From: an uncultured bacterium
GTDB taxonomy: Bacteria; Verrucomicrobiota; Lentisphaeria; Victivallales; UBA1829
Direction of reading: 5' to 3'
DNA length: 61,935 bases
NCBI GenBank assembly: GCA_949290385.1
Contig: CASERY010000145.1
Location: forward strand, 1-61,935
Shown: in pieces, positions 1 to 61,935 of the stretch
How positions within the stretch are numbered: the first letter of the stretch is position 1
Layout: each line of letters opens with the position of its first letter
Translations under genes and position numbers: made by a program
The notes under the pieces: model-generated
Database searches by the model: none
What the model was told of the DNA's origin: nothing
What the model saw: the letters and a program-made list of their open reading frames with translations, nothing else

Positions 1-2
1 CT

Positions 3-458
3 TTTCAAGCACACTCCAGCCAGATTAAAGATTGTTGCTGGACCTGCAGTTACTGGACAAAACCCTGCATTTTCTATTTCGATCAGTGTACCGTGGAAAA
101 TACGGATTCTCCGCTTCTCAGTGTTCCAGTCTATTCTATCCAGAAAATTTTTCTGAATGAGCTCAATGCGGATACGGGAAATTCCCCGCTTATTAAAATT
201 TACGACCTCCGGGAACAGGAGACAGATTCACAGAAAGCTGAAGTGACAGTGGAGAATTCTGATATTAGAAATTTTGCAGGTACCGTTATTGAGACAGGCG
301 ATTTCTCTGAATCCAAAAAAAGTGTTCAGTTTATTGACCGGAATAATGATCTTTCTGAAAATATGATGTTTCTCAAAAATTTTGAGCAATATAAAAATTC
401 CTCTTGGAATTACCACATGGAGAACAATTCTTCTCGGAAACTCAAGATGAAGCTTTAA
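3..458 (+). CDS. 3' end of an unrecognised protein (cut by window edge)
   Basis: The reading frame is open from the left edge of the window to a TAA at 458, so this is the C-terminal part of a longer gene. A GTG at 93 could serve as a start, but the upstream frame (rich in Cys, Trp and Tyr) is also open, so a start outside the window is equally likely. The visible part is acidic and hydrophilic with no membrane segment and no motif I recognise. It converges on the MarC gene on the other strand, 28 bases away. No function is assigned. Confidence 0.45.
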   Translation, partial: FQAHSSQIKDCCWTCSYWTKPCIFYFDQCTVENTDSPLLSVPVYSIQKIFLNELNADTGNSPLIKIYDLREQETDSQKAEVTVENSDIRNFAGTVIETGDFSESKKSVQFIDRNNDLSENMMFLKNFEQYKNSSWNYHMENNSSRKLKMKL

Positions 459-486
459 TTCCAGATTCCATAGATTGAACGTGCAG

Positions 487-1104
487 TCAGATCATCCAGC
501 TGCAGGTAGCAAAAAAGCTCCGGAATCCTTCCAGAATCATTTGAACCGCCATGACCATGATAACCAGTCCGGATAAACGGATAATCGGTCCGCGCAGATG
601 CAGACGCATTAGAAAATGATTGATCCTTGGCTAGAGCATCATCAGAAGAAAGTTAACCGTTAATGAAACAATCAGCCCGATTGCTGTAGAAATAAAGCCA
701 ATCTGGGCAGAAAGTGAAATGGATGCTGCAATCATACCGGGGCCGGCAATCAGCGGCGCCGCCAGCGGAACAAGGGAGACATCCGTAAGACTTTGCCGGA
801 TTTCATCGGCCTGCTGAATGGCAAATTTTCCTTGTTGCACAGCCGTCCAGCCAATCAGAAAGATAACAAGGCCGCCGCCGATTTTTAATGAAAACTCATG
901 AACATGAAAAATTTTACTTATAAGAAAATTTCCAAAGCCGGTTACCAGCAGAAGAATCTACAATGCAGCCGCTGATGATTTCCAGCTTAATTCAATGACC
1001 TGCTTCTGAGTCAATGGAGGGTTGTAAGTAGAAAGAAAAAAGATTTTGCTTACGGGATTCAGCAGAACCAGTAGATAAATGGAATTTTCTATTAAATCAT
1101 TCAT
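487..1104 (-). CDS. MarC family integral membrane protein, two UAG sense codons
   Basis: A 205-residue multi-pass membrane protein of the MarC/UPF0056 family, whose transport role is unsettled. The start at 1104 has a good ribosome site (GGTGAGG, about 8 bases upstream). Family features are the early LLNPVSKIFFLS stretch, the KIGGGLVIFLIGW helix, the LVPLAAPLIAGPGMI motif in the middle and the C-terminal VMAVQMILEGF helix. Codons 49 (958-960) and 158 (631-633) are TAG. The first lies inside a membrane helix between AAL and ILLLV, the second at the end of the fifth helix before PRINHF. Family alignment runs through both without a gap. With the standard code the gene would appear as fragments only. 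It ends on TGA. Confidence 0.85.
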
Positions 1105-1213
1105 GATATTGCCTCACCTTTTTTATTGAATTGCTTGTTTTCAGAAGCTTATGTTGATTCTTTGTGCTGTGTAAACACATCCCCGGGGGGAAAGGAAAGG
1201 GAAGGGGCGTGCT

Positions 1214-1259
1214 CAGCTTTTCAGAAAGCTGTTCTTTTCCTTTTTTAAAAGAAAAGAAC
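1214..1259. repeat. Two adjacent inverted repeats downstream of the symporter gene
   Basis: Positions 1231-1239 (GTTCTTTTC) pair with 1251-1259, and 1214-1220 (CAGCTTT) pair with 1225-1231. They lie just past the end of the symporter gene on the minus strand and could end its transcript, but no clean U-tract follows. Confidence 0.35.
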
Positions 1260-1290
1260 GCAAGACTGCCTGGAAAGAATATTTTTGATT

Positions 1291-2265
1291 TTAATAATGT
1301 CCGTTTCCTCTTGCTTCTGATTCCTTGGGCAAATCATGGAAATGCTTTTTTCTTTCTTCCTTGGCTATTTGACGCTTGTCATGTGCGTACATCTGCCAGG
1401 CATTCCAGGTATTATGCCAAAGGACGTAAAAAATAGGCCCCATTGCAACAAAGGCTCCGGCAAAATGCAATGCCAGATACATGGTAAAAGTTGTATTTTT
1501 CTGTCCCAGAAGCTGACTGCATTCTCTGCGATATTTTTTGGGAGCCAGATATCTTCCGAAGGTAAAATTACAGATGCAAAAGACTGCAGAAATCTAGGCA
1601 ATCAGGAGAATCTGCCAGAGAGATGCTTCAGGATGTTCAATAAAATAGTTGCGTGCAATTGCTGCTAGAACCAGCAATGTAAAGGACCATAAGGAAAACG
1701 TGAAGGTCTTGCAGCGTTTAGGCAGATCCCTCGCACCGGGCCAGATTTTTCGTACAATTAATGCAAGAACAAAAGGTAATGCAATAATTTGGAGAAGCGT
1801 CAGAGCCACATCTCCAAGGAAGCTGATTGTAAAGTTTCCCGTAACCACAGGCAGGAGTCCCAGCAGCGACAGGGAAATAAAGAAATTTGTAATAGTAAAG
1901 CCTGTCAGAGCAAAACCAATCCGTCCGTTCAGAAAGGCTACTACTACAGGGGCGGCAGTGGCTGTGGGAGTAATCCCAATGAAAAACGCCGCTTTTGCCA
2001 AATCAGGATTTCCTGGAAGAAAAATGTGAAAAAGAATGTACGGGATAATCCCCATTAATAAATTGGCCAGTAAAATTCGCCAGTGCTCTTTATGCGGTTT
2101 CAATTCAGAAAAACGAATCTGGAGGCATGACATAAAAACCATGAAGACTAATGCCCACCGGATCAGATTATATGGCGGATTATTCAATACATGAAGCTGA
2201 GGGAAAAAAATACCGATTCCGAATGGAATAAAAATCATAGCCGGCCGAATCAATGTTTTCCACAT
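1291..2265 (-). CDS. Bile acid:sodium symporter (SBF) family transporter, one UAG
   Basis: A 324-residue transporter of the BASS/SBF fold, predicted to carry organic anions with Na+ across the inner membrane. Visible hallmarks are the GITPTATAAPVVVAFLNG motif of the crossing region (around residue 95), the helix-rich hydrophobic profile, and the C-terminal LGQKNTTFTMYLAL motif and HN of the last helix (YVLWHN). Codon 224 (1594-1596) is TAG, inside a membrane helix between QILLIA and ISAVFCICNF. Without reading it, the family's C-terminal signature would be lost. After the last helix a basic tail of about 30 residues follows. The gene ends on TAA. The substrate cannot be told from sequence. 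Confidence 0.85.
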
Positions 2266-2544: not shown

Positions 2545-2579
2545 GAAAACCAACTGGATCGTAAAAAGTTTCTATCTAT

Positions 2580-4325
2580 TTATTTTTCAATAATATCCTT
2601 GTAAGTCTTCCCAGGAGGAATCATGGGAAGCACATGTTCGTGGTAACCTGTATGGCAGTCGAGAAGGAAGGGACCTGGAGTTTCAAGCATTGTTTTCAAG
2701 GCTTGTTCCACCTCATCTTTGCGGTATACGTCCAGTGCAGGAATACCGTATCCCTTGGCAATGGTTACAAAGTCAGGATAGGGACGTGGGAAATGATCGT
2801 TTTCAAGCACGGTATTTCCACGGCGGCTTCCATAAAAACGGTCTTCCCACTGAGCTACCATACCCAGATACTGATTGTTAAGAATAATCATTTTAACGCC
2901 AATATTGTAGTAGTTCAGTGTACCCAGTTCCTGAATATTCATCTGGAAAGAACCGTCACCGTCAATATTGACAATCATTTTATCGGGACAGGCAAGCTTT
3001 GCTCCCATTGCAGCAGGCAGTCCGAATCCCATTGCACCAAGACCTCCGGAAGTCAGCAGCTGACGCGGGTAGCGATATTGATAGTACTGAGCTGCCCACA
3101 TTTGATGCTGTCCAACGCCAGGAACAATGACTGCATTGCCGGAAGTGAGACGGCTCAGCGTTTCCATGATATATTGCGGCTGCGGAATACTGTCACTGAC
3201 CTCGTAATGACGAGGATGTTCTTTTTTCCACACGGCAATCTGTTGATACCAGTCCTTATACTCTTTGCGGATAGGCGAGGCATTGAGCTTATGGAGAAAA
3301 TCCCGAACATTGGCTACAATACCGATATCTGCGCGGCGGTTCTTGTTGATTTCCGACTGGTCAATATCCACATGCACAATTGTTGCTTTTGCCGCAAAAC
3401 TTTCTGCTGGCCCCGTTACACGATCATCAAATCTAGCACCGAAAGCAAGAAGCAAATCACATTCATTTGCAGCCTAATTTGCATAATAGGTCCCGTGCAT
3501 CCCAAGCCAGTCCAGAGAATGCGCATTATCCTGAGGAAAACCGCCTATGCCCATCAGTGTAGTGGTGACAGGAATGTTGTAGGAGTCTGCAAATTTAACC
3601 AGTTCTTCCGACGCTTCCGATGTAATAATCCCACCGCCCGCATAAATACACGGTCTGTTACAATTTACAATGGCTTTGCGTACGGCTTCCACATCGGAAT
3701 CAAGAATCTCAGTATGATCTGGAATATACCTCTGCTGCATAGGATTACGGACAAACACTGGACGGGTAATAGCCTGCTGGATATTCTTTGGAACGTCCAC
3801 CACCACCGGACCCGGTCTGCCGGTATTTGCAATTCTGAATGCAGCATCCATGACCTGCGGGATTTCATCAACAGAAAGGATTAGGAAACTGTGTTTGACA
3901 ATGGGTCTGGTAATACCGATAATATCAGTTTCCTGAAAGGCATTCCGACCGATCAGAGCAGTGCTGACCTGTCCGGTAATACAAACCATGGGAATGGAAT
4001 CCATATAGGCATCTGCAATCCCGGAAATCAGATTGGTGGCACCAGGACCACTTGTGGCCATGCAGACACCAGTTTTTCCTGTGATTCGGGCATATCCACA
4101 TGCAGCAAAAACTCCACCCTGCTCATGGCGGGGGAGAATTACTTTTAACTTTTTAGATTTGCTCAAGGACTGATGAAGTTCAATGGACTGTCCACCGGGA
4201 TATGCAAAAAGCGTCTCAACTCCGGCAAGTTCCAGACAGCGGATAACAATATCTGCCCCTTTCATGGGTTCTGTCGTTTCTGCTGCTCCCGCGTAAGCCG
4301 GATTTTCAATAGGGTTTGTCATCAT
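2580..4325 (-). CDS. ilvB: Acetolactate synthase large subunit, one UAG
   Basis: This thiamin-diphosphate enzyme condenses two pyruvates to acetolactate (or pyruvate with 2-oxobutyrate), the first shared step of valine, leucine and isoleucine synthesis. The protein is 581 residues, normal for the family. The N-terminal domain has FAYPGG and RHEQGG with the catalytic Glu. The middle domain has the FGARFDDRVTG motif. The C-terminal ThDP-binding motif is GDGSFQMNIQELGTL. Codon 284 (3474-3476) is TAG, in the stretch GMHGTYYAN-X-AANECDLLLAFG, which aligns with the family without a gap. No regulatory subunit (ilvH) is next to it. Control is probably by the attenuator just upstream. It ends on TAA before a strong terminator. 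Confidence 0.95.
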
Positions 4326-12979: not shown

Positions 12980-13945
12980 TTATTTCTCATCTGTCATTTC
13001 ACTTAGGATTTTCTGAAGGTCGTCTGGAATCGGAGCTTCTATTTTCAGCAGTTCTCCCGTTTCAGGCTGCGTAAACTCAAGTTTCCACGCATGAAGCATC
13101 TGGCGTTCAGCGGAAGAGGAACGGCCTTTGCTGTAAAGTTTTTCTCCAATCAGAGGATTGTTGATGTGAGCCATGTGAACACGAATCTGATGAGTCCTGC
13201 CCGTATGCAGTTTTACCTCCAGCACGGCAACCTTTACTCCGTTCCAGTATCCTTTCCGGAGAATCCGGTATGCTGTAATGGCTTCCCTCTATCCATGACG
13301 GTCATCTTTGCAGACAGCCATTTTTTTTCGGTCTGTCGGATGTCTGCCAATATATGTTTTAATGACAGAGGCCTCCGGCAGAGGCCATCCATGGACGATG
13401 GTCAGATAAGTCTTGGAGACTTTCCTGTCTGCAAATGCCTGAGAGAGTTTCCGCAGGGCTCTGGATGTTTTTGCAATCAGCAGGACCCCTGAAGTATCTT
13501 TGTCCAGACGATGGACAATTCCAGGACGGAGCGGATCCATCTGGTCTTCCTCCATAAGCTCAGGTTCTCGATCAAGCAGTGCATTGACAACTGTTCCCGA
13601 CCAGTTCCCGGCTGCAGGGTGAACAACCATTCCTGCTGGTTTGTTGATGACAAGAACGTCGCTGTCTTCATAAAGGACATCCAGCGGAATGTTTTCCGGT
13701 TCAGCTTTCGATACAGTTTCAACAGGCGGCACATCAATATGGATTCGATCCCCGGCCTGAACCGGGGTTTTGCAGATCGTACAGAGTTGATCATTAAGAA
13801 GTGTGCAGCCTTTTTTAATCATATGCTGCGCACGTGTACGGGAAAGATCGTCTATCAGATGGATTAACGCCAGATCCAGACGTTCTCCGATAAGATGATC
13901 GGGGACTGTCAGATCATAAATTTCATTTTTGCGGGATGGAGCCAT
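12980..13945 (-). CDS. rluD: RluD-family 23S rRNA pseudouridine synthase, one UAG
   Basis: A 321-residue enzyme with an N-terminal S4 RNA-binding domain (GERLDLALIHLIDDLSRTRA) and the pseudouridine synthase core. The catalytic Asp is in GIVHRLDKDTSGVLLIAKT, and the C-terminal motif is TGRTHQIRVHMAHI. Codon 219 (13289-13291) is TAG, in the stretch DRHG-X-REAITAYRIL, exactly where the family has its conserved REAxTxYRV segment. Under the standard code the gene would be two fragments. The start overlaps the end of lgt by 23 bases, so the two genes are translationally coupled. It ends on TAA. RluD versus YlyB-type specificity is not resolved. Confidence 0.9.
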
Positions 13946-17638: not shown

Positions 17639-18151
17639 TTATTTTAAACGCATCCGTGCTTTTCCGTAATTTTTCAATGCCTGATTTTTTCCGATAAATC
17701 TTGAATCCACAATCAAGGCAAAAGACAGTTCCGGAAACATCCGTACCGCTTTCTTCAAATGATACTGTACATTCTGCTTTCTACATGAAAAACGTTCAGC
17801 CAGTTCGCTGTAGCTCAAATTCGGTTCCGCAATTTTTGCATCCACAATTTCGAATGTTGCAGGAAATTTTTCCTTCATTTTAACGAGCTGTCTCAAGGAT
17901 TTGCTGAATGCATGGAGGAGATGAATCATGTTTTCCTGGTTTAAGGCGCCGTCTTGAAAGGGATTTTCTTCCTCGGCATCTGAAAGAAGATCGGACGGAT
18001 GCTGAACCTGCTAGCTTGAAAAGGTTGCAGGATCATCTTCATAATAAGAGACTGGCTATGGATCACGAATCGTTCTGCATGTGGCACAAGGAGTTTGTTC
18101 ATAGGGAGTATCTGGATCAATATGATAATTGCATTTATGACAGCCGAACAT
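17639..18151 (-). CDS. Zinc-ribbon plus helix-turn-helix protein, visible only with UAG as sense
   Basis: A 170-residue protein from ATG 18151 to TAA 17639. The N-terminus is a zinc-ribbon: CHKC at residues 4-7, then CATC about 18 residues later. An acidic linker follows (SYYEDDPATFSS, then SDAEEENPFQDG). The C-terminal half is a helical DNA-binding region with LSYSELAERFSCRKQNVQYHLKKAV, a typical helix-turn-helix. Codons 32 (18056-18058) and 47 (18011-18013) are TAG, so the standard code would keep only the C-terminal 96 residues and lose the zinc ribbon. It probably regulates or starts the small minus-strand unit with the two unfamiliar genes that follow. I do not recognise a named family. 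Confidence 0.75.
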
Positions 18152-18270
18152 CGTTTGTTTCCTTTCCAAAAATGAGTGAGTTTTTGTTTAAAACTCAGCG
18201 TCAAAAACTTCCCGCGCAATTTCTGGTGCAATTCAGCATTTTATTAAATATTGACATAAAAATTATTTTA

Positions 18271-18656: not shown

Positions 18657-19448
18657 ATGCCTGAAAAAATCAATGTTGTCATTTGGAATGAAAATGTTCA
18701 TGAACGCGAACAGGGTCCTGTCGGAGATTTTATTCGTCAATATTATCCCCATGGAATTCATGAGTATCTGAAATCCGTGCTGGACGCCGAAGATCTCAAC
18801 ATCACTGCGGTATCTCTGGATATGCCGGAGCAGGGGCTTCCAGATGCTCTGCTGAATCAAACGGATGTCCTTCTCTGGTGGGGACATTGTGCCCATGACC
18901 GGGTGGATGATGCCTTAGTTTAGAAAATTCAGGCTCGCGTTCATCGCGGCATGGGGCTGATCTGTCTTCATTCTGCCCATTTTTCCAAGATTTTCAAAAA
19001 AATGATGGGAACTAGCTGTTCACTGCACTGGCGTGAGGTTGGAGAAAAGGAAAGGGTCTGGACGGTAGCACCTTATCACCCCATTGCACAGGGAATCCCT
19101 GAGACTTTTGTGCTTCCGCACTCCGAGATGTATGGAGAATGCTTTGAAGTTCCTGAAGACGGCAGAATTATTTTCATGTCCTGGTATGAAGGCGGAAATG
19201 TCTTCCGCAGTGGAATTACATTCCAGCGGGACAATGGTAAAATTTTCTATTTTTCTCCCGGCCATGAAACCTATCCTATTTACCATGATCTCAATGTCCA
19301 GAAAATCATCAGCAATGCAATTCGCTGGGCGGCTCCCATTGCCATGCAGCCGGAACGTGTCACATGGATGCCTGAAAATCCGGAAAAGATTGTCAGTGAA
19401 AATCCGCTTGCAAAACTCGATACTTCTGCATTGCATGAAAAAGCATGA
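18657..19448 (+). CDS. ThuA-like trehalose-utilisation family protein, one UAG
   Basis: A 263-residue protein of the ThuA family (glutamine-amidotransferase-like fold), linked to 3-keto-sugar and trehalose metabolism; the reaction is not settled. Family motifs are [10 protein letters not shown] at the start, [49 protein letters not shown] and [14 protein letters not shown]. Codon 89 (18921-18923) is TAG, in [17 protein letters not shown], a solvent-facing helix position that in relatives is often Glu or Asp. All conserved parts after it would be lost under the standard code. The ribosome site is AGAAGGA. It ends on TGA and is followed by two hairpins, the second a clear terminator. Confidence 0.92.
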
Positions 19449-22006: not shown

Positions 22007-22109
22007 TCTGTCATTTATTCCATTCATTCTGCATTTAGATGATTTTTATTTTCCCATATTAGGTAGTCATAAAAAAATAGATTGTTCTTAAAAAAAATCA
22101 ATACTGAAT

Positions 22110-22272: not shown

Positions 22273-22479
22273 TTGATGCTGAAGAGCAGGGGAAGTTTCT
22301 TTTATGAAAAGAAGATGTTCCAAAAATCTATTCACTCCGTCAAGAACAGGCGAGGGGGAGTTTTTTTAGTAAAAGATAAAGACGTTTAGTTCAAAATCGG
22401 GAGGATAGATTGAAGAATAGAACAGGACAAATGAAAGATACTTATTTTTAAAATTAAGTTGAATAAAAGGAAAGAAAAA

Positions 22480-31350: not shown

Positions 31351-31617
31351 AAAAAACCTCAAAATTTTCAATCTTTCCTCTAAAAAATACTCTGCCTGAC
31401 TGTATATTTCAAAAGCAAAGCTTAAGATTCCTTTTATTTTAAGGTGGCATAGATCAATTTGACTCGAGATGAATTCTGGATCTTTGTCCAGCTCAGTTGG
31501 GAAAATTTTTCCTCCGACGCCTTGGAGAATCTTAGCTGTATCCCGTAAGGTGAAAGCCTCAGGATTATTTTTTGAATGACATCATAGACAGAATCATAAC
31601 GAATAGAAGGAAAATCT

Positions 31618-45406: not shown

Positions 45407-45848
45407 ATGATTCATAGTTAATTCAGATAAACGATTGTTTCATCTTTTTTGTTAATATTCACAAATCAATGTTGCTGAACAAAATCCTTTCAGCCACAAT
45501 ACATGTACTTGTTCGCCAACTTTGCAGTTATATATTCAACTCAAAATTCTCACGAAGGGACAAGAAGGTTCAAAAACTCTCCATTCTATCCCCATACCAC
45601 AACAGGACATTGCCGAAATGCGTTGTAACTTTATAGGACGATCCTAAAATTTCAGACTGCTCAGATCCTTCATTCCATTCAATATCGCACAGAATATAAT
45701 AGATGCATGAAAAGCATTTTTTCAAGTCCCAGTTGTGCCTCCTCTGCACCTTTCATTTTTTCGATATATAAAACATTAAGGAGGTGGTGTCAAAATAATA
45801 TGAAAGAACAAGTTTTAGTGTTTTTCCAGACTGCAGAAGAAGAATGAT

Positions 45849-46065: not shown

Positions 46066-46752
46066 ATGAAGAAAGATCGTCTTTTTTTGCCAGTCTGTAT
46101 GCTTGCAGGTTTTCTGCTGCTGTTCACGGCTTGTCAGAGCAAAGGTCCTGATCCTGAAAAAAAGCAGGATTTTGCTATGCCGTAGGAAAATCTGCAGCCG
46201 GACGGGAATTCAGTCTCCAGTCAGGAATGGCCAGACAGCACATCTCCTTTCTACTCAGAAGAAGACTGGGACTATGTCATGCAGGAAGAATCCGACCTTT
46301 ATCATCCTGAAACAGTTCCAGATTATAAGCAGAGCAAGCCCATTGAATATCTGATTTTAACTTCAGATCAGCCTTTGCCTTTGCTCCTTGCAGATACAGC
46401 TAGAAAGGAAAAAGACATTCCCTTTCTGGCAATTCCCCGGGATATGGAAATGCTTGAAGAAGAAACGCCGATCCGCTTTGGCGGGAGTGATGAAGAACAG
46501 GATTTTTCAATTCAGGCTCTTTATCTGTCCAAATTCATCGCATATATGCGTCCTTTGAACGTCATCATTTTGGGAGACGAAAAATGCGTACCGGAAGTTT
46601 TCAGGGGTGCAGTGCCGGAGGGAATTCCAGTTGTGGAATTCAAAGACAGGGACTGGAAAATTAATGCAATGAGACTTCAGGATATTCTGTACTGTCCTGA
46701 AATAACCGAAGTCTATGAGACTTACTGGAAAGAAAGAAACAACGAAAAATAA
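46066..46752 (+). CDS. Unrecognised lipoprotein, one UAG
   Basis: A 228-residue protein from ATG 46066. Residues 1-23 are a lipoprotein signal (FLPVCMLAGFLLLFTAC), with lipidation expected at the Cys. Codon 40 (46183-46185) is TAG in the hydrophilic linker (FAMP-X-ENLQPDG). After an acidic linker a domain of about 150 residues has EYLILTSDQPLPLLLADTA and MRPLNVIILGDEKCVPEVF, a Rossmann-like alternation I cannot name. It is 190 bases upstream of the ABC permease on the same strand and may be the exporter's outer component. It ends on TAA. Under the standard code the signal peptide would be severed from the domain. Confidence 0.75.
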
Positions 46753-46942: not shown

Positions 46943-47920
46943 ATGCTGATTATTTTCCAGCTAGCACGAAATACTTTTAAGGAATGCCTTCGCGGACCGG
47001 TTTACTTCCTGATTCTGGCAGCGGCCCTTGTAATGATGGGGCTATTCCCGTCTCTATCTCTCTTCGTTTTTAAAAACGAATTGAAACTTGTTCTGGACAG
47101 CTGTCTGGCCACGACTATGCTTTTCGGACTGTTCACCGCGGTTATCTGTGCCGGGCATACCATAAACCGGGAAATGAAGAATGGAACCGTTCTTCTTTTG
47201 ATGTCCAAACCGGTTACACGTATTGCTTATGTCCTCGCTAAGATCCTGGGAATTACAGCAGCGCTGACCGTATTCGTATTCATCTGCAATGCAGCAACGT
47301 TCCTGTCTGCTTTGATTGCAAAAGATGAATTCCTGCTGGATTATCTGACCATGTCTCTTTTTTACGGGGCATTTCTAGTAGCTGTAATTTTTGGAGCAAT
47401 CCGAAATTTCTTTTCTCAGAAATCCTTTTCCGCAAATTTTATTCTGGCAGCGTAGATCTTGTATCCGGTGCTGGCTGTAGCGATGAATATTGTTCGTCTG
47501 GCATCGATGGACCAGGATGGTCATAGCGTTGGCAATTATGTATCGCCCTATGCACTGCTTATGGTTCTGCTGCTGCTTTTTCCGGCAGTATGGCTTATGG
47601 GGGCAATCAGTGCAGCCTTGGCTGTGCGTATAGACTTCGTAAGTAATTTGATTATCTGCCTTCTCCTTTTTATTTTAGGTTTGGTAGCTCAGTATTTCGT
47701 TACAGTTTATATGGGATCCGGCATTCTGGCATCGTTCCTGAGCGTGATTGTGCCCAACTGGCAATATTTCTGGCTTGCAGATGCGCTGGCGAACGGCGTG
47801 ACTGTCCCTGTGTCTTATGTGATTCTATCCTTGCTGTACAGTCTATTTTACACAGCAATCTGGTTTATCTGGGCGCTGTTCTTCTTCCAGGATGCGGAAC
47901 TTGCCAGAGACAGCCGCTAA
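46943..47920 (+). CDS. ABC-2 type transporter permease, one UAG
   Basis: A 325-residue inner-membrane permease beginning MLIIFQLARNTFKECLRGPVY, the entry usual for NosY/ABC-2 permeases, with REMKNGTVLLLMSKPVTR, a conserved cytoplasmic loop. About six helices are visible. Codon 171 (47453-47455) is TAG, inside a hydrophobic segment between NFILAA and ILYPVLAVAM. Both sides are clearly one protein. The ATPase gene follows after 54 bases and a GldG-type permease after that. It ends on TAA. Confidence 0.87.
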
Positions 47921-47974: not shown

Positions 47975-48940
47975 ATGATTGAGATAGAAAATTTGTCCAA
48001 AAACTATGGAATTAAAAAAGTGCTGGACAGCCTGACTCTCCATGTCAGGAAAGGCGACGTTCTTGGATTCATCGGCCCCAATGGAGCGGGTAAAACCACC
48101 ACGATGAAAATGATCTGTGGAGTCATGCCTGTCTATTCCGGCAGGATTGTACTGAATGGCTTCGACGTCATGGAAAATCCTATTCAGGCAAAGGAAATAA
48201 CTGGATATCTGCCGGAAAATGCCCCTCTTTATCCGAATATGACTGTAAGAAGTTTTTTGAAATATGCCGGACGCATGCATGGTATATCCGGCAGGGATCT
48301 TCCGAAAAAGCTGGAACTCGCAGTACACCGTTGTGCTCTTACGCAGGTTATGGATGAAGAAATTGATTCTCTTTCCAAAGGGTATAAAAGACGCGTATGC
48401 CTTGCGCAGGCGATTATTCATGAGCCCCAGATTCTGGTCATGGATGAACCTACGGATGGCTTGGATCCCAATCAGAAAAGAGAAATTCGCAATCTAATCA
48501 ATATTCTCAGAAATGATACGGCTATTATCATATCAACCCATATTCTGGAAGAAGTTGAAGCGGTATGCAACCGAGTGGCGTTGCTTTGCCGCGGGAAAAA
48601 AATTTTTGATGGCAGTACGAATGAATTTGAAAAACTATCGGGACAAATCGGTACTGTTTCTGTATCCGTTGCGCCTGAAAGCTGGGAAAAGGCATCCGGC
48701 TGTTTTTCAAAAGATTTCGGCTGGACGTTGAAGATTACCGGTACGGAGTTTCGCTTCTGCTGCAATTTGAATCAAGAGAAAACAGATGAACTTATTGCCC
48801 GTATTCAAACACTTGCTGAAGCAGAAAACATTCATTTCAGCAGACAGCCGCAGACAGTCCCTGCAAAACTGGATGATATTTTTGCAGAACTCACAGGTGC
48901 AGACAATTCTCATGAGGGAAGGACGGAACCCATAAGATGA
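47975..48940 (+). CDS. ABC transporter ATP-binding protein (ABC-2/Gld type)
   Basis: A 321-residue ATPase. Walker A is GPNGAGKTTTMKM, the signature LSKGYKRRVCLAQAI, Walker B LVMDEPTDGLDP, and the H-loop is STHILEEVE. A C-terminal extension of about 110 residues follows, as in GldA/NosF-type exporters. It drives the flanking permeases. Its stop codon overlaps the next start (ATGA at 48937-48940), so it is translationally coupled. It has no UAG and ends on TGA. Confidence 0.95.
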   Translation: MIEIENLSKNYGIKKVLDSLTLHVRKGDVLGFIGPNGAGKTTTMKMICGVMPVYSGRIVLNGFDVMENPIQAKEITGYLPENAPLYPNMTVRSFLKYAGRMHGISGRDLPKKLELAVHRCALTQVMDEEIDSLSKGYKRRVCLAQAIIHEPQILVMDEPTDGLDPNQKREIRNLINILRNDTAIIISTHILEEVEAVCNRVALLCRGKKIFDGSTNEFEKLSGQIGTVSVSVAPESWEKASGCFSKDFGWTLKITGTEFRFCCNLNQEKTDELIARIQTLAEAENIHFSRQPQTVPAKLDDIFAELTGADNSHEGRTEPIR

Positions 48941-51588
48941 AAAAGATTTTATTTATAGCTCAACGGGAATTCCTGTCACTCCTGGCAGCACCAACTGCCT
49001 GGATTTTTTTGATCATCTACCTTGTTCTCTGCGGACTTGTTTCCTTTGTCTTCAGCGATATAATTTCTATGGGCCAGGCGGAACTTTCACCTTTTTTCGG
49101 ATGGATGCCCTGGATCTTCATGGTGGTGATTCCAGCGCTGGGAATGCCTCTCTGGTCGGAAGAACGCAAATCAGGAACTTTTGAACTGGCACTTTCCTAT
49201 CCTGCAAACATTGTACAATTTGTTCTGGGAAAATATCTTGCCGGTCTTGCCGTGCTTTTGATTGCACTGTTTCTTACGGCGGGCATACCTGTCACAATTA
49301 TACTGCTGGGAGAACCAGACATGGGCGCTGTCTTCTGCGGCTATGCCGGGGCCTTTCTTATTGGTGCGGTATTCCTGTCAGTATCGTGTTTTTGTTCGGC
49401 TGTTTCAAAGAGCCAGACAGCAAGCTATCTACTCTCACTCTTTATCTGTGCTGCACTTGTCTTTTCAGGATGGGACCGAGTCAGTGAAATGATGAGTCTT
49501 TATCTGGCCCCGTTTATCTGCCGCCTGCTTTCCTATTGTGCTGTGATTCCGCATTATCAGGCATTCCAGAGGGGAATTCTTGACTCATCAGAAGTTCTTT
49601 ATGCCTTGGCCATGACGGCACTTTTCCTTTTCTGCACCAGGTCCGTTCTGCTTTTTTCAGCATCAGGATCAGGCAGTATTTTCAACCGGGGAACCCTTTC
49701 AGACCGTTACACACTGAAAAAAATCGGAAAGGTCCTTGTTTCAATTCTTCTAGCTATCTACAGCTTTTTCTGTATTACTTATTTTACCGGCACCTTTCAT
49801 TTTATGTTGGACTGCACTGAAGACAAGGCTTATTCTCTTTCTGCTCTGTCCAAAGCAATTGCCGCAGATCTGGAAAAACCTGTTGTTATTCGTTTTTATA
49901 CCAGTCCGGCTGGTGGAAACATGCCCAAAGAATATCAGCTGTATTCATCCCGCATTGAATGGCTTTTAAAGGAATTCGCAGATGCATCCAATGGCAAGCT
50001 CGAATTGCAGATTATTCAGCCTGAAAGTGATTCGCTCGACGAAGAAGCCGCTTTTGCAGAAGGTGTTCGGCAGGTGCAGAATCCCAATGGGGATCGTTTC
50101 TTTCTTGGAATATCCGTATCCTGTTATGCCAAAACTGCAGCGATTCCGTTTCTGTCTCCAAGGCAGGAGAATCTGTTGGAATATGAACTTGTCAGAGCTG
50201 TTTTAAATGCTACTGGTGGAGAAAAAAAGATTGTTGGTGTTCTCAGTGCATTTCCTGTTCTTGGACAAAAAGCAAATCCGACCGAAAACCAGAAAGCTGC
50301 CGCTCGATGGACCTTTCTAGAAGAAGCGTCCAAGGACTATTATTTCCTTGAACTGCCTTTTGATATAGCAGAAATTCCGAGTGAACTTTCTGCACTGCTC
50401 ATCTTCCATCCGGCTGGAATTTCCAGTAAAACCCTTTATGCTGTAGACCAGTATCTTTTGCGGGGCGGGAATATCGGCATTTTCCTGGATCCAGACTCAG
50501 CCTATGCAAGAGCGAATATTGCCAGAGACTATTCCATGCTGAACAAACAGACTTCGGATCTGGGACCTCTTCCCGAGGCCTGGGGCATTCAGTATGATCC
50601 CAATGTACTTGCGGCAGATATGATCTTCAAACTGGACAGAATTGCACGCAATGGAACACGGCAAGTGATTCCTACTGTTCTGAATATCGGGCCTCAGGGA
50701 ATCAACCGGAATCTGCCATTTTTGCAAGCACTCTCTGCAATGCGTATGAATTTCACAGGAGCATTTCCTCTGAAGGAACAGAAGCCTGACCTTGTTTATG
50801 AGCAACTCCTCCATACGACAGAACAAGCTGAACTTGTATCAGTCAACGATATGCCGGAAAAAATTTTTGCAGAATACCAGAGCAAAAAGGCAGGAGATCC
50901 GACGGTAAAAGAATATCCATTAGCCTGGAGAATCTCCGGTCTTTTTCCATCTGCCTATCCTTCAGGATCTCCGGATGCTGCCGGGCATTATACATACCCG
51001 CACCTGGCAAAAGCAGAAAAAAGCGGACAGGTCTTTCTGCTGGGAGATACCGATATGCTCTTTCATGATGCCATTGTCCAGCCTTTTACGGACGAGTTCA
51101 ATCAAGTTGAAGTCATTCGGATCAATGACAACCTGACTTTCTTCCAGAATATCATGGAAGAACTGACTCATTCTCCACAGCTGGCAGTGCTCCGAAGCCG
51201 TATTCCGATGAACCGCCCGTTGACGAAGGTCAATGAAAGTAAGCTGAAGGCTGATTTGAAATATAAAGATCAGATTCTTGCGCTTGGAAGCGATTTCAGC
51301 CGTATGCAGAAACAGGTTGAAATCCTTAATAAATATCTTGTAGCTATGGGCGGAGAATAGAATCTTACTCCAGAACAGCAGAAGATACTCAAGACATTCA
51401 ATAAAAAACGACAGGATTTTATCCGTGCCGGCAAAGAAATCCGCATGCAGTTAAAAACTGAATTGGATTCTTTAAACAACCAGGTCCGGAAAATCAATAT
51501 TGTCTATATTCCTTTGTGCGTTGCCCTGATCGGGATCTTGTGGTCTGTCAGCAGACGCATATCCTGGAAAAGGAGGAAAAACTCATGA
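48937..51588 (+). CDS. ABC permease fused to a GldG-type domain, one UAG
   Basis: An 883-residue protein. The first 250 residues are an ABC-2 permease (AQREFLSLLAAPTAWIFLIIY, then SEERKSGTFELALSYPANIVQ). A further helix leads into a large periplasmic GldG-like domain (KPVVIRFYTSPAGG, then IEWLLKEFADASNGKLELQ, and RGGNIGIFLDPDS). Codon 808 (51358-51360) is TAG near the end (LVAMGGE-X-NLTPEQQKILKTF). The frame then gives a coiled coil and the final membrane helix (INIVYIPLCVALIGILWSV) that this family needs, ending on TGA at 51588. Without UAG as sense the C-terminal anchor is lost. It overlaps both neighbours by 4 bases. Confidence 0.9.
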
Positions 51589-52822: not shown

Positions 52823-53686
52823 ATGATACAGCAATCTTCCTCTAAAAATCACCCGTTCATCCCTGTGGCACTGACGATTGCCGGTAGTGATTCCGGAGGA
52901 GGCGCAGGAATCCAGGCGGATCTTCGGACCTTTTCTGCCTTCGGGGTTTTTGGAACTTCGGCCATTACCGCACTGACATCCCAGAATCCACAAGGTGTCT
53001 ACAGAGTGGATCCATCTTCTCCGGAATGTGTCAAAGCTCAAATCAATGCGGTTTTTGCGGCATTTCCAGCAGCTTAGCTGAAAACCGGAATGCTTTTTTC
53101 CAGTGAAATTATTGAAGCTGTAGCAGCATCCCTTGAGACGGTAAAAATTCCAGTTGTAGTTGATCCAGTCATGGTGGCCACAAGCGGCGCAAAGTTATTG
53201 CGGGATGATGCTTTGGCGCTTCTCCAGCAAAAAATCTTTCCGCTGGCAGATTGGCTTACCCCGAATATCCCGGAAGCTGAATACCTGACCGGATTAAAAA
53301 TTCACGATGAAGATACATGCTGGGCTGCAGTGAAATCCATTTCAGAAAAATGGCATACATCCGTTATACTCAAAGGAGGACATGCGGAAAATCCCCAAAT
53401 GGCCAACGATTATATCCAGACTGTTTCCGGAAAGCGTTTTCTCCTCAGCGCTGAACGCATCCAGATCCAGCCTTATGCTTCTCACGGAACCGGTTGTACC
53501 CTGAGTGCGGCAATGACCGCATTAATCGCCCTGGGGAAGGATGTTCCGGAGATATTAACTGAGGCAAAAACTTTTGTTCTGGAATCGCTGAGGCAGTCCA
53601 GATTCGCCGGAACTGAAGAAAATCAGATCCATGTCATGTTTCCGCCTCAAAAAACGGAATCTCATGTTGAAATTTTTGAACGGTGA
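52823..53686 (+). CDS. thiD: Hydroxymethylpyrimidine (phosphate) kinase, one UAG
   Basis: A 287-residue ribokinase-fold enzyme that phosphorylates hydroxymethylpyrimidine twice in thiamin synthesis. Motifs are [73 protein letters not shown] and the anion-hole/catalytic [12 protein letters not shown]. Codon 85 (53075-53077) is TAG, in [13 protein letters not shown]. The family consensus has a small residue, mostly Ala, just before [VIL]KTGML, so this is one of the better sites for naming the residue. It ends on TGA, overlapping the amidase GTG start by 4 bases. Confidence 0.93.
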
Positions 53687-55935: not shown

Positions 55936-58152
55936 TCAGAATTTTGAATGAAACGTTCTGGTTACTACATCCATTTGCTGTTCACGAGTCAGTTTGATGA
56001 AGTTGACGGCATAGCCGGAAACACGAACCGTCAGCTGTGGATATTTTTCAGGATGATCCATGGCATCCAGCAATGTCTCGCGGTTCAGGACATTTACATT
56101 TAAATGATGTCCGTTTTCTTTAAAATATCCGTCAAGAAGCGTAATTAAATTTGCCTGCTGATCCGCCATGTTCTTACCCAGGGCATCTGGCACAATGGAG
56201 AATGTGTAGCTGATGCCGTCCTCAGAATAGTCATATGGCAGCTTCGCTACGGACTTCAAAGAGGCTACTGCTCCATTGGTATCACGACCATGCATAGGAT
56301 TCGCTCCGGGGGCAAAAGGCTGACCAGCTTTGCGTCCATCGGGCGTGGAAGCGGTTTTTTTGCCATACATGACGTTTGAAGTGATCGTAAGAATAGACAT
56401 GGTGGGTTTTGCTCCGCGGTATGTAATATGCTTTTTAAGCTTATTCATGAAGTCTTCCACAATTTTGACAGCAATCTGGTCAACGCGGTCATCGTTGTTT
56501 CCGTATTTTGGGAAATCGCCTTCCACCTCAAAATCGTATGCCAGTCCCTGCTCATTGCGAAGCGGTTTGACTTTTGCATAGCGAATAGCAGAAAAACTGT
56601 CCGCAAGGACCGAAAGCCCCGCAATACCACCTGCCATCGTCCGCAGGATTTTTTCATCATGGAGAGCCATTTCAATGCGTTCATAGCAATATTTGTCATG
56701 CATATAATGGATGACATTCAAGGTATCCATGTACAGCTTCGCAAGCCATTCGGTTGCCTGGTCATATGCAGCCATGACCTTGTCATAATCCAGAATTTCA
56801 TCGGTAAGGACAGGCATTACCGGTCCCGTCTGTTTGCCTTCATGCATGACATCACGTCCGCCGTTAATTGCAAACATCAATGCTTTTACCAGATTGCATC
56901 TCGCACCAAAGAACTGCATCTGTTTGCCAATGCGCATAGCGGAGACGCAGCAGGCGATTCCGTAGTCATCTCCAAATTTCAAACGCATCAGATCATCATT
57001 TTCATACTGGATTGCAGATGTTTTGATGGAAATTTCAGAACAGAAATGTTTGAAATTTTCGGGGAGTTTTTCACTCCAAAGAACCGTAAGATTGGGTTCC
57101 GGCGCAGGACCAAGATTAATCAAAGTATGGAGAAAACGATAGGCCATCTTGGTAACCATATGCCGTCCATCCTGAGACATGCCGCCAATGGAGGCCGTCA
57201 CCCAGGTTGGATCTCCCGAAAAGATTTCATCATAGGCGGGAACACGCAGGAAACGGACAATACGCAGTTTCATGATGAAATGATCCACCATTTCCTGAAT
57301 TTCAGTTTCCGTATATTTCCCGGACTTCAGATCCCGCTCCTAATAACAGTCCAGAAATGCCGTAATGCGGCCAATGGACATGGCTGCACCATTCTGTTCC
57401 TTAACCGCTGCCAAATATCCGAAATACAGCCATTGAATTGCTTCCTTAACATCCGTTGCGGGTTTGGATATATCAAATCCATACTTGGCAGCCATTTCTT
57501 TCAGTTCGCCAAGCGCCCGGATCTGTTCTGAAAGTTCTTCACGCTCACGGATGATTTCTTCACTCATGTAATCGCTGACACAGTTGGTTTTTGCGATTTT
57601 CTTCTGTTCAATCAGGAAATCGACTCCGTAAAGAGCAACCCGACGGTAGTCGCCAATAATGCGTCCACGGCCGTAAGCATCCGGGAGTCCGGTAATAATA
57701 CCCGCATGACGTGCCAGTTTCATTTCATCGGTATATGCATCAAAAACTCCGTCATTATGAGTCTTGCGGTACTTGAATACATTGGCTACCTGAGGATCCA
57801 TATCACGTCCGTAGACTTCCAGCTGTTTCTGAACCATGCGGAAGCCGCCAAAGGGCATAATGGCGCGTTTAAGAGGCGCGTCTGTCTGCAAACCTACAAT
57901 TTTTTCGAGATCACGGTTGATGTATCCCGCATTATGCGATGTAATGGTAGAAATGGTATGTTCATCAATATCATATACATTTCTACGTTCACGCTCCACC
58001 TTCATCATATCCTGGAGCTGTTTCCAGAGCCTGACGGTAGCTTCCGTGGGGCCCTGCAGAAAAGATTTATCTCCATCATACGGCGTATAATTCCTCTGAA
58101 TGAAATCCCGTACGTTGATTTCCTTCGACCAGTCGCCAGAAATAAAATTCAT
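55936..58152 (-). CDS. pflB: Formate C-acetyltransferase (pyruvate formate-lyase), one UAG
   Basis: A 738-residue glycyl-radical enzyme that splits pyruvate and CoA into acetyl-CoA and formate, central to anaerobic sugar fermentation. The adjacent active-site cysteines are in [11 protein letters not shown], the radical Gly in [10 protein letters not shown] near the C-terminus, and other motifs are [14 protein letters not shown] and [15 protein letters not shown]. Codon 271 (57340-57342) is TAG, in [15 protein letters not shown]. coli has Ile at this place and other PFLs have Ala or Phe, so a charged residue is unlikely. The standard code would cut the enzyme in two. pflA follows. It ends on TGA. 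Confidence 0.96.
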
Positions 58153-58360: not shown

Positions 58361-58378
58361 AAAGAAGTATTTCCTTCT

Positions 58379-58778: not shown

Positions 58779-60086
58779 TTATTTTTCTCCAGATTTCCCT
58801 GTCTTTCCGGAATACTTCATCAGCCAGCATCCGACCAAGGCCGTAAGCGGAGCCACCAGGACCAATCCGATACTTCCCACAAGAGTCTTGACAATCTCAG
58901 GAACCATATAAGGATAATTCAGAATGTCAGTCATCAGAACTCCTTCCGCCTGAAAAGACATCATCAGGGTCAGGTATCCACCACAATAGGCAAGGAGCAA
59001 AGTCGTCGACATGGTGCCAACTACACTTTTGCCGATTCGCAATCCGGAAGCAAGAAGCTCCCTTCTTGAAATATCAGGCTTGTGGTAAACAAGTTCTCTC
59101 ATGCCTGCTGAAACATCCATTCCCAGATCCATCACCGCTCCTGATGATGCCAGAAACAGCTAACCGATAAAAAGATCTGTCATATTCAGATATTCATATC
59201 CTGCAAAATACAGTGCCTGCGAGCGCGTCATTACCGCTCCATTGACATTCAACAGAACCGTAAAGACCTTGGCCATGGCACAGCTGCACAGCACGCCTAA
59301 AAACGCACCCAGAAATGCAGTCCATCCTTTCACGCCGAATCCGGCGACTGCAAAGATAATAATAGCACAAAGGAGGCAGACCGCAATCAGAGAAATCCAA
59401 ATAGGACTGTAGCCTTTCAGGCATAATGGAACCAGAAGCTGCCAGATAACCACACAGGAAAAAATAAAAGTCAGCAACGCCTTGAGTCCGGTGAATCCGC
59501 CAAAAACAAGAAGCAGCTATGCAAAAAGGAGGAAAAGAACAACCTCGTAATGAATCCTGTAATAATCCTGAGCAATGACGTATAACTGAGGTGAGCCATC
59601 CGGATTAATTCCGTCCGTGGTCACAGCGATCTGGATTTCATCCCCGGCTTTGAAAATCGTATCCAGTTCAATCTGCGACCGGAGCATATTCATGGCAAGG
59701 ACTTCCATTCCAGCATACGGTCCAGTTTTAATCCGCACTGTGCAGCGCTGTTCTCCCATCTAAAGGGGACCGTTCTGAATCACAAAGGAATTATCTACGG
59801 AAAGGACTTCTGCCCGTTCCCGGACTCCTGCGATTTTATTGTGAGGAATACTCAGAGAGTAATGTTCATTCACAATATCCACTGCAAAAATTGCAAGAAT
59901 AACCATTGCAGAGGACAACAAATGACTCCGGTTCTGAGAAAAGAAATTCAGAAATCCATGAATCCATCTGTTTTTTACAGTTCCTTCGTCTGCTGCAAAT
60001 TCCCCGAAGAACTTTCCATACAGAAGTACTGCATAAACCAGGAAAAACAGCATAAAGAAACAGGGAATGATCCATCTGGATGGCAT
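58779..60086 (-). CDS. YibE/YibF family membrane protein (both halves in one chain), three UAGs
   Basis: A 435-residue protein. One N-terminal helix and a soluble domain (VRIKTGPYAGMEVLAMNM) correspond to YibE. Seven or so helices with ASSGAVMDLGMDVSAGM and GTMSTTLLLAYCGGYLTLMM correspond to YibF. Firmicutes often encode these as one or two genes; the activity is unknown. Codons 109 (59760), 190 (59517) and 309 (59160) are TAG. The last two are in or at membrane helices (FLLFA-X-LLVFGG and DLFIG-X-LFLASSGAVMD), where relatives have hydrophobic or small residues. The standard code would give four fragments. It lies 135 bases after the phosphatase gene with a terminator between. It ends on TAA. 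Confidence 0.88.
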
Positions 60087-60136
60087 AAAAGTTATAGCAT
60101 TGTCCAGTTCGGAAAGTCCGGCCTATGTACAGAAGA

Positions 60137-60171
60137 AAACAAAAGCGACCGTCTACAGATCGCTTTTGTTT
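60137..60171. terminator. Rho-independent terminator after the alkaline phosphatase gene
   Basis: A perfect 12-bp stem (60137-60148 with 60160-60171, AAACAAAAGCGA arm) is followed on the minus strand by TTTTC. Confidence 0.8.
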
Positions 60172-60221
60172 AATTTCAGAAAAGCGGTTAATTTTTTCAT
60201 TGCTTTTCTCAAATATTTCAA

Positions 60222-61739
60222 TTATTTGGCTTCAAAAATCTTGCGCAGGTTTTTCGCAATATCGGTATTGTCAGAGATATTGCCGAAAAGCATGGAATTG
60301 ACTCCATAGGCAGAGGTTGCCACCGGCATTGCAGAATGGTGGAAAGAGGCCCATGCAAGACCGGACTTATTGGAAACCAAGTGGGTCGCTGTAATCATCA
60401 GAGGATCATATCCACCATACATGACTCCCTTGCTTTCTGTGGGAGCATATTCCTTGTTATAGCCCATGGAACGATCAAAGGCGGCCTGAAGCTTGGATAC
60501 TTCATAATCAGAAAGCACCATGTTTCCATTTTCCGGCTTGACTCCATTTTCCGGATCCGGGAAGATCAGACCAAATGTATCCGTGATATAGGGTTTCATG
60601 TCGTCAAAAGTCAGCACGATGCCGTCTTTTTTCGCTTCATCTTTGATTTCCTTGAACTCATTGCTTGCGCGCCAGAGAGTCTTCTTCTGCCCCTCAATAT
60701 TTTTCAGATAAAGAGCATAACCTGTTCCGGAAAAGCCCAGCGTCAATGCACCAGTTTCATGGTCCCCTGTAACTACGATCAATGTTTCATCCGGATGTTT
60801 CAGGGCAAAATTGTAAGCTACCTGAACAGCTTCATCCAAGGCTGTCAGTTCCGCAATGGTTCCTGCGGCATCATTGGCATGCGCAGTCCAGTCAATCTTG
60901 CCGCCTTCTGTCATAATGAAAAATCCATTGGGATTGTCCAGAACTTCAATAGCTTTCGCTACATTCATGGCAAGTGTAATATCATCGGGCTCTTCGTCCA
61001 TAGCATAGAAACAGGTGTCTTCTTCTGCAAGATGCGGATTCTTTACATAAATCGGAGTAGCAGAACCAGCTCCAATTTCCGCAAATTTTTCCGGAGAATC
61101 GACAATGGTAAAGCCGTTTTCTTTCAGAAGATCATACATATCTTTCTGATCTTCCTTTCCATAAATCCACCAGCCCTTCTCGTTGACAGTGATACGGCCC
61201 TTATTGTCGTAGATTCCGCCGCCGGCAAAGAATTCAAATCCGGAATTGATCATGTCACCGGCAATTTTGTAGTATTCTCCGCGGTTTTTCTGATGCGAAT
61301 AGAAACCTCCAGGTGTGGCATGATTCATGGATGTTGTTGTAACAATTCCAATTTTTTTACCGCTTTTATGGGCCACTTCAGAAACCGATTCAACGGGCTC
61401 TTTATTAATGTCCATGCCAATAGCTCCGCTGTAAGTTTTTACACCGGTAGCCATGGCTGTGGCTGAAGCTGCAGAATCGGTGATCAGGGAATCAGCAGAA
61501 TAGGTTGTAGCATATCCCTGAACGGGGAAAGAATTCATGCACAATCCTTCGCCTGTCATTTCCTTTAGGTAGAAATCTGTGACCATTCTTTGAGGAGTGG
61601 CCATACCGTCTCCAATAAAGAGGAAAACATATTTTACGGGTTTTACTTCCGGTTCTTCCGCCTGCGCCTGACCGCAGAAGGAAAAAACCGCAGCAGCAGA
61701 TGCCACAGCTGCCAACAGGAATTTTTTGAATTTCAACAT
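60222..61739 (-). CDS. Secreted alkaline phosphatase
   Basis: A 505-residue zinc/magnesium phosphomonoesterase exported to the periplasm to free phosphate. Residues 1-27 are a signal peptide ending QAQA. The metal site FIGDGMA, the Ser nucleophile in ITDSAASATAMATGVKT, EGGKIDWTAHAND, VVTGDHETG and a late His in TATHLV are all present. It has a phoA-type fold but is longer than E. coli PhoA. It has no UAG and ends on TAA. It may answer phosphate starvation, but I see no clear Pho box in the 200 bases upstream. Confidence 0.93.
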   Translation of the reverse strand: MLKFKKFLLAAVASAAAVFSFCGQAQAEEPEVKPVKYVFLFIGDGMATPQRMVTDFYLKEMTGEGLCMNSFPVQGYATTYSADSLITDSAASATAMATGVKTYSGAIGMDINKEPVESVSEVAHKSGKKIGIVTTTSMNHATPGGFYSHQKNRGEYYKIAGDMINSGFEFFAGGGIYDNKGRITVNEKGWWIYGKEDQKDMYDLLKENGFTIVDSPEKFAEIGAGSATPIYVKNPHLAEEDTCFYAMDEEPDDITLAMNVAKAIEVLDNPNGFFIMTEGGKIDWTAHANDAAGTIAELTALDEAVQVAYNFALKHPDETLIVVTGDHETGALTLGFSGTGYALYLKNIEGQKKTLWRASNEFKEIKDEAKKDGIVLTFDDMKPYITDTFGLIFPDPENGVKPENGNMVLSDYEVSKLQAAFDRSMGYNKEYAPTESKGVMYGGYDPLMITATHLVSNKSGLAWASFHHSAMPVATSAYGVNSMLFGNISDNTDIAKNLRKIFEAK

Positions 61740-61935
61740 AACATTAATCCTTTTCTTTGTTGTTGTGTTGCTTGGTTTTATCTTTAATCCTATGATTTAT
61801 AACGCATATTCCCGGTAGACAAGGCCGCTTTTTATTTCCATAAAAAGATAAAGAAGCAGCCAGAAATATTCGTCTATTGTTGAATATAGTGAAACGCAAA
61901 TGAAAAACAATCGTTTTTTTCGAGAACTAAGCTTC

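Follow-up and report, generated by a model that had tools for sequence, protein, structure and literature searches.

Phages that use genetic code 15 (crAss-like phages, in which UAG is glutamine [Gln]) carry in-frame TAG codons in many genes and end their genes on TAA and TGA, and the bacteria that use codes 4 and 25 (the Mycoplasma type and the Absconditabacteria/Gracilibacteria) have turned the stop codon UGA into sense genome-wide and have lost the matching release factor. In ciliates and green-algal mitochondria, UAG stands for a standard amino acid, and the cells that use pyrrolysine (methanogens and some bacteria) also read it as an amino acid. Here we describe a contig of 61,935 nucleotides (C145; “the window” denotes this whole stretch of DNA) from a bacterial metagenome-assembled genome (MAG) in which UAG is probably a sense codon throughout. 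The in-frame TAGs and the gene ends on TAA or TGA resemble those of the code 15 phages, but this is a cellular genome with rpoC, pheT, and prfB, in whose incomplete assembly neither release factor 1 (RF1) nor a suppressor tRNA was found, and the residue is not clearly Gln. With codes 4 and 25 it would share a genome-wide bacterial stop-to-sense change and loss of the matching release factor, although codon and factor are UAG and RF1 here and UGA and release factor 2 (RF2) there, and it differs from the ciliate and green-algal mitochondrial codes in being bacterial rather than eukaryotic or organellar. Unlike in the pyrrolysine systems, no PylS was found in the assembly and TAGs occur in core genes generally; pyrrolysine at UAG in bacteria, as covered in the accessible portion of PMC8318568, is a different system from that here.

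Recoded Escherichia coli likewise lacks RF1 and stops on UAA and UGA, but it was engineered, with UAA put in place of all 321 UAG codons, according to the available sections of PMC6207430. A 2021 screen of more than 250,000 genomes states, in the excerpts available, that all bacterial changes then known reassign UGA and that its five new codes are all of arginine codons; it also mentions 290 stop codons in bacteria for which an amino acid was inferred, some of which may be unvalidated UAG candidates (PMC8629427). Among open-licence papers, we found no genome-wide reassignment of UAG in a cellular bacterium.

The MAG comprises 2.68 Mb in 168 contigs and is 78.5% complete. Most named relatives of a ParC-like protein in the window come from Lentisphaerota/Victivallales MAGs, with 67% identity for the top-ranked one, and several were sampled from rumen, cecum, or colon. 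Genome-wide statistics are based on 1.00 Mb of the MAG in 61 stretches, including the window, with a relative (G008, 1.57 Mb) given the same TAG-open reading as a control; release factors and the ParC-like protein were compared among 60 relatives. The tblastn alignments were cleaned by best-frame filtering against antisense shadow open reading frames (ORFs).

With TAG read as open, the window contains 39 nonoverlapping ORFs of at least 150 amino acids (aa), of which 20 hold a total of 36 TAGs, and the ends are 22 TAA and 17 TGA. A threshold of 100 aa gives 46 ORFs with 41 TAGs, ending on TAA (26) or TGA (20). The preliminary description of this DNA had reported 38 TAGs in 22 of 43 genes, a count that falls between these two recounts, and no gene ending on TAG, which holds at both thresholds. 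Pfam matches run across the TAGs of MarC (two), ilvB, ThuA, the RluA-type synthase, pyruvate formate-lyase, ThiD, the ParE-like protein, and DUF805 and across part of the TAGs of SIR2 (1 of 2), IclR (1 of 2), YibE (2 of 5), and YdbH (1 of 6), while an ABC2 match crosses its TAG with a score below the Pfam cutoff. The NCBIfam HrpB model crosses all four TAGs of that gene. When TAG is read as Gln, six of seven window proteins score above a curated NCBIfam cutoff; the ParE-like protein passes none. Less certain are the TAGs that lie near termini (codon 442 of 455 in the amylase and 842 of 875 in the ParC-like protein) or in ORFs without a family match.

The pattern extends beyond the window. Among ORFs of at least 200 aa in the 1.00-Mb sample, 242 of 564 are affected, with 390 TAGs in 234,343 codons, making TAG about as rare as CTA, and in-frame TAGs occur in 59 of the 61 stretches, the other two being 2.2-kb contigs. 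When G008 is read alike, 97 of its 892 ORFs contain a total of 130 TAGs among 430,081 codons; on this background, perhaps a fifth of the 390 TAGs in the MAG could be read-through noise. The 61,550 well-aligned codons include 62 TAG, 9 TAA, and 31 TGA. Where identity to relatives is 60% or more (31,007 aligned codons), there are 23 TAGs in 18 alignments, no TAA, and 7 TGAs confined to two alignments, both judged to be antisense shadow matches. The corresponding control, MAG proteins against G008 over 41,383 codons, yielded three TAG, no TAA, and three TGA, and the three TAGs lie opposite short ORFs. In the 456 kb of the sample used for an ORF coverage test, coverage was 0.752 and median length was 241 aa with TAG closed, and these values rose to 0.807 and 287.5 aa when TAG was opened; at the relatives' loci, coverage rose only from 0.896 to 0.898. 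The position of TAG along genes resembles that of CTA, AGG, and CAA, and conserved genes underuse TAG by a factor of 0.44, compared with 0.45 for CAA, 0.49 for AGG, and 0.56 for CTA. Of 47 G008 codons opposite TAG, 20 differ from it by a single step, compared with a background of 11.7%.

TAG is also scarce at gene ends. In 110 alignments, the end of the homologue is reached and a stop triplet lies no more than 10 codons away; that triplet is TGA in 55, TAA in 52, and TAG in 3; 9 more have a later stop. Two of the three TAG ends were judged to be shadow ORFs, in the same two alignments that hold the seven TGAs, leaving at most 1 of 108 clear ends. The third (L178:16292-16294) lies at the relative's stop position, with TGA two codons later, in a protein that we take to be endonuclease IV-like, and is possibly a relic of TAG as a terminator. 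TAG terminates 37 of 361 ORFs at 29 loci of relatives and 52 of 1,225 ORFs in G008, and the shortage in the MAG is significant against the family loci (P = 0.0009).

Core genes are affected as well. rpoC, named by its PDB matches, has a TAG at codon 1005, pheT has three, and prfB has one. The earlier statement that essential genes carry TAG, which named ilvB and pflB among others in the window, is borne out beyond it; hrpB in the window also carries TAG. In the other 51 genomes with an rpoC match, one TAG lies inside the match in G021 and none in the rest. The G021 match (contig C16:179-4492) occurs in a genome whose prfA match is above the cutoff.

A full prfA, encoding RF1, was not found in the 78.5% complete MAG, where the best match to the prfA model scores 268.7 bits against a cutoff of 423.25. 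That match is prfB, which scores 524.7 bits for TIGR00020 with TAG read through. A second match to the prfA model, from a short protein with GGQ, is closest to prfH and stays below the cutoff. Among the relatives, prfA is above the cutoff in 56 of 60, and one more reaches 415.8 bits. The preliminary description held that a normal prfA without a CUA tRNA, or many single-copy genes elsewhere ending on TAG, would speak against a sense meaning; in the assembly, prfB and no normal prfA was found, and TAG ends are few. The prfB gene (L213:4413-5510 on contig C8, minus strand) encodes 365 aa and ends on TGA. The TAG at codon 42 is the sole stop triplet between the presumed start and this TGA, and no frameshift is needed after that start; synthesis of RF2 would thus depend on decoding of UAG. 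In the part of PMC12421855 available, TAG is never the premature stop of the prfB frameshift motif in 8,164 genomes, a site that differs from the TAG here. An RF2 record that is 99% identical has Gln at this position, which likely reflects an ancestral CAG codon or translation by code 15 and not the meaning of UAG. In a relative with an RF2 that is 91% identical (P0315, seven contigs), the predicted protein does not begin until about 30 codons downstream of the TAG site. Such a start, as if an in-frame stop lay upstream, may mean that a sister lineage shares the code.

The residue at UAG was sought in homologues. At the 62 aligned TAG sites, the best homologue has Gln at 10, serine (Ser) and alanine (Ala) at 8 each, glycine (Gly) and lysine (Lys) at 6 each, glutamate (Glu), asparagine (Asn), and leucine (Leu) at 4 each, and other residues at fewer. 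CAG is the commonest G008 codon opposite TAG (9 of 47). At 60% or more identity, Gln lies opposite 7 of 23 TAGs, compared with 64% for Gln codons, and is 21 nats ahead of the next residue. Five of 51 TAG genes, whose alignments contain TAA or TGA as well, were dropped from the site set, and for an enlarged 60-site likelihood, a fit with free conservation, and a filter-swap test, seven homologue pairs were dropped (those five and two judged to be shadow matches), which took out three Gln sites, among others. Residues of relatives and paralogues were entered by hand into these three analyses. One duplicate paralogue site was left out of the enlarged set and the free-conservation fit; the filter-swap test, in which the flank scores of added sites are estimates, dropped only another site of the same gene. 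In the enlarged set, Ser is first, Ala is second, and Gln is 13.9 nats behind Ser; in 2,000 bootstraps, Ser wins 1,286, Ala 446, and Gln 266. The free-conservation fit places proline (Pro), Ala, threonine (Thr), and Ser 4 to 11 nats above background and Gln 16.7 nats behind the best; the nominal best is Pro, with a conservation of 2% and 123 of 150 bootstraps, followed by Ala, Thr, and Ser. The leading residue thus varies with the set of sites (Gln in earlier sets, Ser and Gln within 0.9 nats in one, Ser in the enlarged set), and Ser and Gln exchange ranks when the alignment filter changes.

Other comparisons were similarly divided. Substitution of 10 residues in an AcrB-type protein gave Pfam scores of 1014.6 (Gln), 1014.2 (Asn), 1012.6 (Glu), 1012.3 (Ser), 1011.6 (Lys and Thr), 1010.4 (Ala), 1009.7 (Gly), 1006.8 (tyrosine [Tyr]), and 1002.2 (Leu), and the same scoring of PheT was nearly flat. 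Conserved columns at TAG sites disagree, with Glu in the ParE-like protein, Tyr in IlvB, Gly in the RluA type, Ala and Ser/Ser/Thr in Sir2, Ala or Gly in HrpB, and Ala/Gly in YibE. Of 12 TAG sites with paralogues, 4 lie opposite TAG and 8 opposite a sense codon (Ser, Ser, Ala, Ala, Thr, Lys, Tyr, and Leu); the Tyr and Leu sites, in ORFs judged to be antisense, were excluded from the likelihood sets. Two tandem gene copies that are 88% identical (L303:8219, 10348, and 10354, minus strand) have one TAG in common, and a second TAG is TCG in the other copy.

Several results weigh against UAG as an ordinary sense codon decoded in an RF1-less cell. Opening TAA or TGA raised raw ORF coverage more than opening TAG (to 0.822 and 0.840), but with shorter median ORFs (242 and 255.5 versus 287.5 aa); raw coverage is weak evidence and does not by itself single out TAG. 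The shortage of TAG ends is not significant when tested against G008 alone (P = 0.12). A full prfA match is also missing in three incomplete relatives, G016, G034, and G046 (72, 69, and 78% complete), so that its absence from an incomplete MAG, although in agreement with the codon data, is by itself no proof. The best self-match of TAG is 10 of 62 (16%), compared with at least 46% for every sense codon; for Gln, the figures are 47% with CAA and 55% with both codons together. In the enlarged set, the best single residue is 15 nats worse than a pure background, whereas real codon sets of seven amino acids beat background by at least 29.6 nats in all draws. All 68 loci compared in relatives, with some genomes counted twice, have Glu at codon 60 of the ParE-like gene (window position 36797). 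We take this Glu to be the catalytic general base of the ATPase, and any other residue at this TAG is hard to explain. Ser and Gln fit best overall and Ala third, none fits like a normal codon, and the data do not support any single assignment. Of the preliminary claim of a new bacterial code, the sense meaning of UAG and the lack of an earlier cellular case in the open-licence literature stand.

A further point on the same side is that no tRNA with a CUA anticodon, for which the preliminary description had proposed a search, was found, either by ARAGORN at tRNA-match loci or by pattern in the whole 78.5% complete assembly. The assembly has 46 tRNA matches, or 47 at an E value of up to 10, the last one near the transfer-messenger RNA gene. 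A partial match at a contig end received no ARAGORN call and resembles tRNA-Glu by eye, and ARAGORN with loosened thresholds returned noise only. One candidate, a degenerate element like tRNA-Sec (selenocysteine) with CUA in its loop (C164:65-149; L051, minus strand; 19.4 bits; E = 0.97), lacks an encoded CCA, and many of its pairs are broken; the pattern behind it has 4 matches versus 16 for a reversed control, and it was treated as a chance match. tRNAs known in relatives, namely Ser GCT, Ser GGA, Ala TGC, and isoleucine (Ile) GAT, are missing here, so this assembly is without some tRNA genes, and a CUA tRNA may have been missed. In the same incomplete assembly PylS was not found, the C-terminal model reaching 20.2 bits against a cutoff of 178.15, and a pyrrolysine code was rejected on this result.

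That UAG is sense throughout the genome, as the preliminary description claimed, is supported by its occurrence in 59 of 61 stretches without an excess of TAA or TGA, by the few TAG ends, and by the finding of RF2 and not RF1 in the assembly. The explanation that we favor, and consider probable, is that UAG is decoded by a tRNA genome-wide after loss of RF1, with termination at UAA and UGA probably left to RF2 alone. The missing RF1 would reflect a loss by the cell itself and not merely a gap in the MAG, RF2 would then serve both remaining stops, and a tRNA would have taken UAG over by codon capture, its CUA-anticodon gene presumably lying in the unassembled part. No one residue fits well and a single mutation often separates TAG from the codon in the relative, which points to a recent reassignment or to one whose meaning is still ambiguous. 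A bolder version, which we put forward only tentatively, is that of a free bacterial lineage without RF1 in the middle of codon capture, in which UAG has no one fixed standard meaning and RNA polymerase, phenylalanyl-tRNA synthetase, and RF2 depend on it.

The alternatives differ mainly in what UAG would mean. A plain glutamine code, the phage code 15 in a cell, is conceivable though on balance improbable: Gln is the commonest residue opposite TAG, leads at 60% or more identity, has the best AcrB-type score, and stands in the RF2 record, but TAG matches Gln far less often than real Gln codons do, a test of code 15 failed, Gln trails Ser in the enlarged set (whose dropped rows held three Gln), and HrpB, YibE, Sir2, the RluA type, and ThiD have conserved Ala/Gly columns at TAG. 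Many conserved TAG columns hold small residues, and this, with the bootstrap ranks of Ser and Ala, the TCG in the tandem copy, and the Ser and Ala residues in paralogues, would suit a reading as serine or alanine. Some tRNAs have a synthetase that ignores the anticodon, and one of these could have been diverted to UAG. We regard this version as rather doubtful, given that no such tRNA was found, that the fit is below that of real Ser or Ala codons, and that the lead of Ser over Gln depends on the alignment filter.

The failure of every single residue, the lack of a CUA tRNA, and the closeness of TAG to the relatives' codons could also arise if no dedicated tRNA existed and several near-cognate tRNAs read UAG after RF1 was lost, giving mixed meaning at mainly lenient positions. 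Near-cognate suppression, frameshifting, and rescue are how E. coli without RF1 resolves unassigned UAG in the available sections of PMC6207430, but 1 to 1.7 UAGs per 1,000 codons, including those in rpoC, pheT, and prfB, seem more than slow decoding combined with ribosome rescue could cope with, and other essential tRNAs missing from the MAG leave the absence of a CUA tRNA with little weight; this is unlikely. The misfit of all standard residues would be accounted for by pyrrolysine or some other additional amino acid, which is very improbable in view of the PylS score. Equally improbable are pseudogenes, assembly errors, or contamination. The MAG is a draft in many contigs, TAA or TGA accompanies TAG in a few genes, and contaminating recoded contigs are described as a cause of false stop codon inferences in the excerpts of PMC8629427, but the signal is specific to TAG, spans nearly all stretches, and is enriched at sites one step from the relative's codon, and the TAG-bearing core genes otherwise stay open.

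In the window, TAGs lie in many genes with family models. The HrpB helicase (28016..30604, minus strand; at least 120 homologues) has TAG at codons 76, 461, 594, and 719 (30379, 29224, 28825, and 28450) and matches TIGR01970 over residues 10 to 861 with 822.7 bits (cutoff, 546.15). Pyruvate formate-lyase (pflB; 55936..58152, minus strand) scores 1202.8 bits for TIGR01255 (cutoff, 994.2); its TAG at codon 271 (57342) corresponds to Ile in two PDB chains among the matches listed and to Ala in G009. The large subunit of acetolactate synthase (ilvB; 2580..4325, minus strand; TIGR00118, 700.4 bits; cutoff, 538.35) has TAG at codon 284 (3476), which is Tyr in four of five relatives' sequences. In the RluA-family pseudouridine synthase (12980..13945, minus strand; TIGR00005, 277 bits; cutoff, 192.7), codon 219 (13291) is Gly in both relatives. 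The hydroxymethylpyrimidine (HMP)/HMP-P kinase (thiD; 52823..53686, plus strand; TIGR00097, 278.6 bits; cutoff, 204.95) has TAG at codon 85 (53075), opposite Ala in four PDB chains among the matches listed and Ala/Phe/Tyr/Ala/Ala in relatives. The Sir2-type deacylase (30589..31371, minus strand; Pfam SIR2, 160.2 bits; NF001753, 252.4 bits; cutoff, 243) has TAG at codons 156 (30906) and 243 (30645), opposite Ser/Ser/Thr and Ala/Ala/Ala, respectively. The ParE-like subunit, of the topoisomerase IV/gyrase B type (36620..38467, plus strand), has TAG at codon 60 and four Pfam domains, with NCBIfam gyrB and parE models below cutoff. The adjacent topoisomerase IV A-type (ParC-like) gene (38474..41101, plus strand) has a single TAG, codon 842 (40997), in a variable C-terminal tail, and no stop was seen among the listed matches of the 60 relatives.

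Pfam domains cover TAGs in several further genes. MarC (93.3 bits) spans codons 49 (960) and 158 (633) of a MarC family protein (487..1104, minus strand), ThuA (115.5 bits) spans codon 89 (18921) of a ThuA-domain protein (18657..19448, plus strand), and DUF805 (residues 25 to 122) spans codon 117 (20396) of the gene at 20048..20995 (plus strand). A YibE/F membrane protein with homologues (58779..60221, minus strand) has TAG at codons 23, 33, 154, 235, and 354, the last two under YibE_F (243.6 bits). IclR_C covers codon 147 (21589) of an IclR-type regulator (21254..22027, minus strand), which is Glu in two of two relatives at 74 to 76% identity, while codon 13 (21991) lies opposite a gap in one aligned relative. 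The YdbH-like protein (42545..45415, minus strand) has TAG at codons 27, 39, 98, 531, 559, and 758, the last covered by the Pfam YdbH-like domain (residues 734 to 885). Below-cutoff matches cover codon 171 (47453) of an ABC-2 type permease (46943..47920, plus strand; ABC2_membrane_2) and, near the C terminus, codon 442 (23782) of an alpha-amylase family protein (22459..23826, plus strand; Malt_amylase_C, residues 374 to 451). The TAG lies just beyond the domain in an SBF-like transporter (1291..2265, minus strand; codon 224 [1596]; SBF, 25.3 bits, residues 38 to 209) and outside it in an ABC transporter auxiliary protein (48937..51588, plus strand; codon 808 [51358]; ABC_transp_aux, residues 443 to 738). 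A small protein with a weak helix-turn-helix match (17639..18169, minus strand) has TAG at codons 38 (18058) and 53 (18013), both covered by one G008 homologue at 53% identity, and a protein without a Pfam match (46066..46752, plus strand) has TAG at codon 40 (46183) in an open frame only.

Standard annotation splits TAG-bearing genes, and the completeness of such genomes may be underrated. A bacterium in which UAG is sense would close the gap that separates phages recoded at UAG from bacteria recoded at UGA and would be a natural counterpart of E. coli without RF1. Its relatives still use TAG as a terminator, and the question of how a stop codon changes meaning could be tested in such a lineage.

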